Shown here piece after piece: positions 20,919-61,239 of a stretch of DNA of 64,000 bases (within the stretch, counting starts at the first letter, position 1; each line of letters begins with the position of its first letter). Source of the DNA: Atopobacter sp. AH10 (GTDB lineage: Bacteria > Bacillota > Bacilli > Lactobacillales > Aerococcaceae). The stretch lies in assembly GCF_003664595.1 (NCBI RefSeq), contig NZ_QXPZ01000032.1, forward strand, positions 1 through 64,000, given 5' to 3'. A program made the position numbers and the translations under genes. The notes beneath the pieces are model-generated. The model saw nothing but the letters and a program-made list of their open reading frames with translations, ran no database searches and was not told where the DNA came from.

Positions 20919-21947
20919 TTATTCGTTCACCATTACCGCATCCTTAGCGATGGATTCTGGAATTTCAATGCCAAGTTCCTTAACTTTCTTTTTGTTGATA
21001 TAAGTTGTACCCTTGTCCGCAACTTGAATAGGGTAATCCGCAACATTCTTTCCTTTTAAAACATCTACTACTACTTTAGCAGTTAAACGACCAATTTGGT
21101 ATTGGTCTACACCCATCCCCATTAAACCACCATCTTTAACCATGGTATCCGCAGAAGGGAAAACTGGTATTTTCGCTTGGTCTGTTACTTGAACCAAAGT
21201 AGCCATGGCAGAAGCAATCCCATTATCAATTGGCACGTAGATTGCATCAACTTCAGAGGCCAATTGAGTAGCTACTTGATGAATATCTGTCGTATTCGTC
21301 ACAGATTTAACGACTGGCAACAAACCCAATGCTTTCACTTCTTTTTCTGCTGTTTTAGCTTGTGCCACAGCATTGTCTTCAGAGGATGTGTATAAAATCC
21401 CAATTTTCTTAGCTTTCGGAAGGACTTCGTGGATTTGACTGATTTGTGCTTTAATATTCACCCGATCGCTAACCCCTGTCACGTTTTTCCCTGGATGGTC
21501 TTCAGACTCAACCAATCCAGCTTGCTCTGGGTAAGTTACCCCTGATAGAATAATTGGTCTTTCTGTTTCTTTACCTGCTAATTGTTGAGCAGCTGGTGTA
21601 GTAATCCCCACCACCAATTTTTTATCCTTAGTTAACAATTGTTGAGCCATGGTTGACAAGTTTCCTTGATCTCCTTGGGCATTTTGAAAGTCAATCTTGA
21701 TCGTCTTCCCTTCTTTATAACCCGCATCAGCCAATCCATCAACAATACCTTTCTTTATAGCATCCAAAGCTGGGTGAGAAACTAATTGCAAAATCCCAAT
21801 AGTTGGGATATTCTCTTTCTTTGCCGTCTCCTCTTGTTTTGCGTTTGTCTTTGTCATGGATCGATCCGCTAATTTAAGGCCAAAAAGCGAAACAAGTAAA
21901 ATAAGAACGACAACAATAATTCCTAATACATTAGATCTTTTCTTCAT
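20919..21947 (-). CDS. Trp/Tyr-type ABC transporter substrate-binding protein (PF04392)
   Basis: Extracellular binding protein of 342 residues. An N-terminal hydrophobic helix at about residues 7-27 has no lipobox Cys, so it is probably anchored by an uncleaved helix, as in streptococcal TrpX. The periplasmic-binding fold begins IPTIGILQLVSHPALDAIKKG and includes VVGITTPAAQQL and VGVDQYQIGRLTAKV-type motifs. The start at 21947 has GGAGG nine bases upstream; a longer in-frame start at 21992 lacks one. It is the first structural gene after an attenuator whose leader peptide contains Tyr-Trp, pointing to aromatic amino acids. Confidence 0.88.
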   Translation of the reverse strand: MKKRSNVLGIIVVVLILLVSLFGLKLADRSMTKTNAKQEETAKKENIPTIGILQLVSHPALDAIKKGIVDGLADAGYKEGKTIKIDFQNAQGDQGNLSTMAQQLLTKDKKLVVGITTPAAQQLAGKETERPIILSGVTYPEQAGLVESEDHPGKNVTGVSDRVNIKAQISQIHEVLPKAKKIGILYTSSEDNAVAQAKTAEKEVKALGLLPVVKSVTNTTDIHQVATQLASEVDAIYVPIDNGIASAMATLVQVTDQAKIPVFPSADTMVKDGGLMGMGVDQYQIGRLTAKVVVDVLKGKNVADYPIQVADKGTTYINKKKVKELGIEIPESIAKDAVMVNE

Positions 21948-22017
21948 TTGATTTTCCTCCATTATTACGCTTAAACTCAGCAACTTTTTCATTCATTTAG
22001 CCTTTGAGGGGCGATAC

Positions 22018-22140
22018 AAAAAAAGACCGCTTGTGCGGCCTAAGAAAAAAGACCGCCATCTATGCGGCCTTACAACTTGTCGCATAGAAACCACCCTCAA
22101 ATAGGTTGTTTCTATGCCATATATCATGGTGAAACAACCC
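22018..22140 (-). promoter_or_regulatory. Leader-peptide attenuator with two tandem terminators
   Basis: On the minus-strand RNA four pairing segments follow the leader peptide. Segment 1 (22128-22140) pairs with segment 2 (22104-22118) through GGTTGTTTC/GAAACAACC. Segment 2 can instead pair with segment 3 (22081-22095) over about 12 bp. Segment 3 can also pair, TCTATGCG/CGCATAGA, with the 5' arm of terminator 1 (22045-22069). Terminator 2 (22018-22040) has the same arms, GGCCGC and GCGGTC, each with a T6-T7 tail. Ribosome stalling at Tyr-Trp codons would leave segment 1 free, freeing segment 3 to break terminator 1. Pairings are seen; the mechanism is inferred. Confidence 0.8.
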
Positions 22141-22144
22141 GGTT

Positions 22145-22192
22145 CTATGCGCTTTGCCAGTATTGAGATGTCATTGCTTGCAATTGTGGCAT
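22145..22192 (-). CDS. Leader peptide with adjacent Tyr-Trp codons
   Basis: A 15-residue ORF, MPQLQAMTSQYWQSA, with GAGGAG ribosome binding site nine bases before ATG and a TAG stop five bases before the first attenuator segment. The TAC TGG codons lie 12-17 bases upstream of the stop, so a ribosome stalled there would not cover segment 1, while one at the stop codon would. It precedes a Trp/Tyr-type ABC importer. The peptide itself probably has no function beyond regulation. Confidence 0.75.
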   Translation of the reverse strand: MPQLQAMTSQYWQSA

Positions 22193-22225
22193 TGTGGGTT
22201 GCTCCTCTCCTTAAAAGTTATTTAC

Positions 22226-22254
22226 ATGATATACCTTTGATCCCTTAAAAGCAA
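22226..22254 (-). promoter_or_regulatory. Promoter of the attenuated ABC operon
   Basis: TTGCTT (22249-22254) and TATCAT (22226-22231) with a 17-bp spacer put the transcript start near 22219, about 27 nt before the leader peptide ATG. Confidence 0.6.
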
Positions 22255-36304: not shown

Positions 36305-36310
36305 ATAATC

Positions 36311-36350
36311 CTCCTAGTTTTTTTACGTGGGATGGTTGATGAACCACGGT
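36311..36350 (-). promoter_or_regulatory. preQ1-I riboswitch upstream of queT
   Basis: On the minus-strand RNA a CGTGG/CCACG stem with GGTTC at its base and a short loop is followed by the A-rich tail AAAAAAACTAGGAGG, whose end is the queT Shine-Dalgarno. This is the class I preQ1 aptamer. Sequestration of the ribosome binding site by the pseudoknot implies translational repression by preQ1. Confidence 0.85.
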
Positions 36351-36476
36351 CTTTCGACAGATTTTAGATCTATCCCTATGTATTCTTAAGGAAACCATTC
36401 TTAATTTTTTTGGAAAAGTAGTCGCTACTTCTCTCCTAACTACACTAGTTAGAAAAGAAGTTGCTATTCCAGCCGA

Positions 36477-60984: not shown

Positions 60985-61131
60985 TTCGCTTCTGGTGCCA
61001 AAACGGCCTCTGTTGCCTTCTTACAAAGGTTTTTCTTCCGTTTCTGTAGAGTGCACACCCTGGAGTCATCCGCCGAATTTTCGATAAACTCCATCCTCGT
61101 CCCCCAGGCTATCTATCCTGGGTCTGGCGCT
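60985..61131 (-). ncRNA. glmS ribozyme riboswitch
   Basis: The minus-strand RNA starts AGCGCCAG at 61131/61130, where cleavage occurs between A-1 and G+1. It contains the conserved GGATGGAGTTTATCGA, TTCGGCGGATGACTCC and GTGTGCACTCTACA elements in order, and ends about 30-100 nt before glmS. Glucosamine 6-phosphate acts as cofactor for self-cleavage, which lowers glmS mRNA. 3' boundary is approximate. Confidence 0.93.
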
Positions 61132-61239
61132 ATTCCTTAAAAAATTATCCTCCCTATTTACAGTTTTTCAGAAGCTATTTTACTATACAACAGGATGGAA
61201 AGGCTGTCAAATTTCTCCTATTAGACCTTCTGTCTCAAG

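Follow-up and report, generated by a model that had tools for sequence, protein, structure and literature searches.

Introduction

The trp attenuator of Escherichia coli comprises a leader ORF with Trp codons, alternative hairpins between which the position of the ribosome chooses, and an intrinsic terminator. The transporter operon trpXYZ of Streptococcus suis is controlled by a Trp T-box and is induced by Trp limitation (PMC9382623). A third system, the "trpB motif" of Rfam (RF04312), was published in 2024 as SRC-39-1 and described as a strong but untested riboswitch candidate with an unknown ligand and over 900 members, although its authors left a classic attenuator possible (PMC11109978). 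A literature search of open-access papers, which did not cover subscription papers, found no other paper on this motif.

This study examined a 64,000 nt stretch of DNA from Atopobacter sp. AH10 (contig NZ_QXPZ01000032.1; hereafter the window), and specifically the minus-strand leader of an ABC transporter operon. This leader very probably controls transcription of a tryptophan importer as an attenuator read by the ribosome, and consists of eight RNA segments, designated A to H, linked in a chain of mutually exclusive pairings. Two points are most likely new: the reading of RF04312 as a leader-peptide attenuator programmed by its codons, and a conserved coupling of tandem terminators, regulation itself not having been measured.

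Results

Organization of the window leader and operon

A likely promoter (TTGCTT-17 nt-TATCAT, 22226..22254, minus strand, as are all features of this leader and operon) was inferred without transcript data. The Shine-Dalgarno (SD) sequence GGAGAGG (22204..22210) precedes a 15-codon ORF, MPQLQAMTSQYWQSA* (22145..22192, ATG at 22192), confirming the original prediction of such an ORF with TAC TGG near its end; these are codons 11 and 12, and the single Trp codon TGG lies at 22159-22157. Homologous ORFs are present in 78/81 RF04312 loci. A leader-peptide attenuator should have an SD-led short ORF before a terminator, and the window has one, its translation being inferred. The ORF is followed by trpX (20919..21947), specifying a tryptophan ABC transporter substrate-binding protein (PF04392; NF041285 at 414 bits, cut-off 390), and, by domain match, by genes for an ABC permease (PF02653, 20014..20895) and an ABC ATPase (PF00005, 19235..20011). 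The operon had been expected to be of a Trp/Tyr-type; an ABC operon it is, but the type is corrected to a TrpX-type importer (NF041285). No T-box was found at the gathering score in the window, or at E<=1 in nine relatives. Elsewhere on the minus strand of the window, a glmS ribozyme (60990-61142) and a PreQ1 riboswitch (36308-36353) scored above their Rfam cut-offs.

Segment A (22141..22152, GCGCATAGAACC) is the 3' end of the leader ORF and can pair with D, an option absent from the original prediction. Segment B (22131..22140, GGGTTGTTTC) is a partner of C (22104..22118, containing GAAACAACC), which may alternatively pair with D. Segment D (22081..22095) is the antiterminator strand, with A, C or E as partner, and its sequence TCTATGCG is complementary to CGCATAGA in the 5' arm of terminator T1 (22051..22069). 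T1 consists of E (GGCCGC, 22069-22064, with CGCATAGA to 22059) and F (GCGGTC, 22056-22051), followed by a U-run at 22050-22045 (T6), while T2 (22025..22040) consists of G (GGCCGC, 22040-22035) and H (GCGGTC, 22030-22025), followed by a U-run at 22024-22018 (T7). The arms of the two terminators are therefore identical, as had been noticed. Hairpin energies in the window (kcal/mol) were -12.7 for B:C, -19.5 for C:D, -9.8 for D:E, -8.5 for E:F, and -10.6 for both F:G and G:H; the fold in which B:C is nested within A:D reached -27.0. The predicted complementarity between the C:D loop (TTTGAGGG) and CCCTCAAA beyond T2 (22002..22009) is also present, but is not conserved in relatives (z about -1.4).

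Relationship to RF04312 and conservation of the pairing chain

TrpX-like proteins were found in 89/100 related genomes, and many of their genes follow a leader of the same layout, whose peptide ends in WQSH, WQSQ, WQNWRR or similar. These relatives match RF04312, the best in that set at 66 bits (L020, 66.3). The window leader scored only 25.5 bits, under the curated cut-off of 59, and so does not meet the score required for membership; the weak match begins at segment C. Judged from its sequence, it is a divergent leader, architecturally related to RF04312 without being a scored member. The family is present in 237/395 sampled genomes of the order (Lactobacillales) and is rare across the phylum (4/398 sampled genomes). 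Three matches (L039, L040, L119) were unrelated terminators and were rejected. In one copy (L041), T1 is followed by a sequence that by eye looks like the beginning of a group II intron, with a distant gene after it.

Conservation of the chain was assessed by comparing duplex energies of matched segments with those obtained when segments were permuted among 33 genera, each represented by one locus. The pairings C:D (z=-9.7), B:C (-7.5), the AB region with D (-5.7) and D:E (-3.9) were all stronger than permuted pairs, while the control combinations A:C (+0.9), C:E (0.0) and B:E (-0.7) were near zero. These z values are only descriptive, since genera are not fully independent. The predicted classical series of three options, 1:2, 2:3 and 3:T1, corresponds to B:C, C:D and D:E, and the permutation tests thus support the mutually exclusive helices that must link the ORF of an attenuator to its intrinsic terminator. 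A comparison of leaders upstream of PF04392 operons in relatives had been proposed as a check: leader ORF and arms proved to be conserved, and the pairings covary. Pairing of B with the SD region of the leader itself was striking in a few loci but not significant (z about -1.8) and was set aside. In several loci (L071, L073 and L074, which are Granulicatella-like, and L056 and L057), the D-E linker is complementary to sequence beyond T2 over about 13-16 bp, so that both terminators are enclosed, as in GAATGAACTCGA/TCGAGTTCATTC; such stretches are genus-specific and show no overall conservation (z about -1.4).

Leader codons and the nature of the signal

Leader ORFs were sought at 81 RF04312 loci across the order, requiring an SD and ATG, a length of 8-40 codons and an end <=40 nt from the motif. 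They were detected at 79 loci, and 78 had Trp within the last 12 codons, against 0.9% of shuffled upstream sequences and 0/240 positions further upstream. The three loci without a Trp leader were the false match L119, L127, which is cut by a contig start, and L125, with Phe/Tyr codons. Tyr immediately precedes Trp in only 1/64 distinct leaders, although several nearer relatives of the window (L003, L027, L079, L087) have YW. The joint Tyr-Trp signal that had been read from TAC/TGG therefore stands for its Trp half alone: Trp is the likely signal, Tyr as a second signal was rejected, and the Tyr of the window is probably incidental. A leader of the same kind (MKLYCTKLNLTKYWQSH) precedes trpX of Fusobacterium gastrosuis.

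The codons are not the same everywhere. In the genus of L125, leaders of the type HFYFSYFRYSL (FYFSYFR) precede TrpX paralogs that score 314-320 bits, under the TrpX cut-off of 390, while the tested trpX genes with Trp leaders score 399-407, above it. A genus in another class carries the same RNA with Phe leaders (FFNNHFR) before one type of Na+ symporter and Leu leaders (NNLLLLANLR) before a different type. An attenuator should have regulatory codons cognate to the amino acid of its operon, and this was observed: Trp codons before trpX and trpB, and Phe/Tyr, Phe or Leu codons before other transporters. Leu, Trp and Phe had already been connected with the same transporter family in an earlier survey of T-boxes (PMC2494555). 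Segment A pairs with D across the regulatory codons in other loci, and a change of codons is accompanied by a matching change in the 3' extension of D, so that A:D pairing is retained.

These observations bear on two other readings of the leader. The riboswitch reading put forward for the trpB motif, in which the RNA would bind a metabolite, is scarcely credible, even though the account of the motif in that paper presents it as a strong candidate, with a conserved hairpin followed by a terminator (PMC11109978). A leader ORF with cognate codons occurs at nearly every locus, it is the codons and not an aptamer that vary with the transported amino acid, and the alternative pairings explain the conserved nucleotides; the same account did not itself exclude a classic attenuator. 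No ORF-independent aptamer was found, the conserved bases being accounted for by pairings, although binding cannot be assessed from sequence. Codons and transporter switch together while the RNA architecture stays constant, most likely indicating an attenuator read by ribosomes, and the concerted change of codons and D extension does not readily fit an aptamer that binds a ligand. A TnaC-like arrest peptide that senses Trp, in which a nascent W-Q-[NS] chain stalls the ribosome, is very improbable, though less remote than the riboswitch. The W-Q-[NS] sequence is strongly conserved, 56 of the 64 distinct peptides having the Q and 52 having S or N, frequently with only one Trp, but its codons pair with D, which accounts for the conservation. 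It is gone from the Phe and Leu versions (FNNHFR, LANLR) of the same RNA, so that the conserved residues on which a TnaC-type arrest would depend are lacking there, and importers are expected to respond to scarcity rather than to free Trp.

Proposed coupling of the two terminators

The original prediction went beyond a classical attenuator in inferring a cascade by which both terminators are disarmed, the released 3' arm of T1 (F) pairing with the 5' arm of T2 (G). T2 was sought at every locus, and F:G was tested at 80 non-redundant loci from 30 genera. For the T1 3' arm, pairing with the 5' arm and loop of the T2 at the same locus gave -9.2 kcal/mol, and pairing with T2s taken from other genera gave -6.2 (z=-7.4, range -6.0 to -8.6), while F against the T2 loop and 3' arm (+0.5) and E against the T2 5' arm and loop (-0.6) gave values near zero. 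Compared with a null of 64 unrelated terminators from the window and the loci of relatives, the own T2 was in the best 5% at 49/80 loci. Within one genus the two strands covary (GCGGGU/GACCUGC, GCGGGAU/GAUCCUGC, GUGGGAC/GUCCUAC), and where leaders with Leu or Phe codons in the other class have a T2, F:G is at -8 to -20 kcal/mol. The inference of a cascade is thus supported, by comparison only and without laboratory data. F:G is weak in some loci (e.g., L115, L120, L061), and the only congener of the window examined (L019/L070) has no T2. An apical position of the F:G duplex within T2 was dropped as a feature (0.67 against a permuted null of 0.66). Several Trp leader copies (L044, L047, L054, L058, L076) have T1 without T2; the gene that follows is trpB by HMM at L047 and L076 and, by eye, encodes a trpB-like protein at L054/L058.

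A simpler account, that of an ordinary leader-peptide attenuator in which T2 is merely a back-up that polymerase passes after T1 has been overcome, and in which duplication of T1 produced the identical arms and these serve no domino function, appears unlikely but deserves more weight than the riboswitch or the arrest peptide. T1 does resemble T2, and part of the F:G signal could come from such a duplication; the mirror pairing E:H is also matched (z=-3.2), some loci lack T2, and the T2 bases complementary to F show no preference for unpaired positions (0.23, with a background of 0.32). Equilibrium usually favors G:H. However, F:G is far stronger than E:H, and a strong, armed T2 would keep the operon silent when it should be ON. 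In six loci (L139-L142, L087, L088), moreover, T1 has no U-run, T2 is the sole terminator, relievable only via F:G, which has 8-12 pairs, and T1 can act there only as a relay to T2.

Limits set by folding

Folding of the window with the leader segment masked, another suggested check, failed to reproduce the ON state: with a static ribosome at either of two mask positions, equilibrium C:D remained at about 0.8 and D:E did not form. Since C:D wins at equilibrium despite the modeled stall, either switching must rely on kinetics or the model lacks something. When E was masked, the equilibrium in most loci went to G:H at the expense of F:G, P(F:G) exceeding 0.5 in only 14/80 though reaching 0.67 in the window, so that disarming of T2 must also be kinetic. 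When E was masked and H not yet made, F:G formed first in 80/80 loci, a count without a null; the F-linker-G hairpin averaged -12.2 with the own T2 and -8.2 with swapped T2s. In the window F:G and G:H have the same energy, which is a favorable case for a kinetic trap. Its identical arms also allow E:H with F:G nested inside, a fold that would be OFF, as it ends at the T2 U-run.

Discussion

The attenuator reading rests on comparison, namely the leader ORF in 78/81 loci and the permutation z values of B:C, C:D and D:E, without expression data. The mechanism proposed here is drawn by analogy with classical attenuation and is unproven; regulation in vivo and its kinetics are inferred, as are the order of the steps, the site at which the ribosome stalls and the kinetic disarming of T2. 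When Trp is plentiful, the ribosome would reach the stop codon and cover A and B, C:D would form, and both T1 (E:F) and T2 (G:H) would fold and end transcription, T2 catching polymerase that escapes T1. When Trp is scarce, a ribosome stalled at the Trp codon would mask part or all of A and leave B free to capture C; D, now free, would capture E and block T1, and the released F would capture G once made, disarming T2 and allowing trpX to be transcribed. If the leader is not translated, A:D with nested B:C would occupy D and transcription would end, so that A:D should hold the leader OFF also in the absence of translation.

The wider proposal, probable but held with less assurance than the attenuator itself, is of a modular domino attenuator, in which the decision of the ribosome is passed along an extendable chain of alternating hairpins and the released 3' arm of one terminator disarms the next. 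Loss of its U-run may turn an inner terminator into a mere relay, and the same chassis is recoded for Trp, Phe/Tyr, Phe or Leu. If this is correct, an orphan riboswitch candidate, of over 900 members by the count in its description, is resolved as a leader-peptide attenuator that is common in Lactobacillales and present in other groups, leader codons predict what each linked transporter carries, and a way is provided for two terminators to work as one switch.

Two further arrangements were seen among the relatives. Several loci (L130-L135, L137, L010, L018, L026, L093) have a second SD-led short ORF with Trp codons (peptides such as SDWEW, SDWDW and RQWTSQRWQSK) 21-47 nt before trpX, past both terminators, possibly an extra, translational layer of Trp control. 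At L074, an RF04312 copy with a Trp leader precedes a partial gene for an oligopeptide-binding protein (Opp4A-like), and the regulon may therefore extend to the uptake of peptides.

The trpB motif has the C:D hairpin, the antiterminator strand and terminator T1 in common with the window leader, and sits before amino-acid ABC transporters and trpB. Its published model starts at C and regards the RNA as a candidate riboswitch, and the passage on the motif does not include the leader ORF, segments A and B, T2, the domino pairing or the Phe and Leu versions (PMC11109978). The bmrB-bmrCD attenuator of Bacillus subtilis, unlike the window, senses ribosome-targeting antibiotics, and has one terminator and no codon-specified amino acid (PMC4191407). 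The trpXYZ operon of S. suis is of the same transporter type as that of the window, but its T-box binds uncharged tRNA directly (PMC9382623); none was found in the window.

On the reading proposed here, a Trp leader ORF, hairpins decided by the ribosome and an intrinsic terminator are all shared by the window leader and the E. coli trp attenuator. The window differs in having one extra alternation before the terminator, which means that a stall must permit B:C, and in adding a second terminator, tied to the first by F:G, in control of an importer in the Bacillota.
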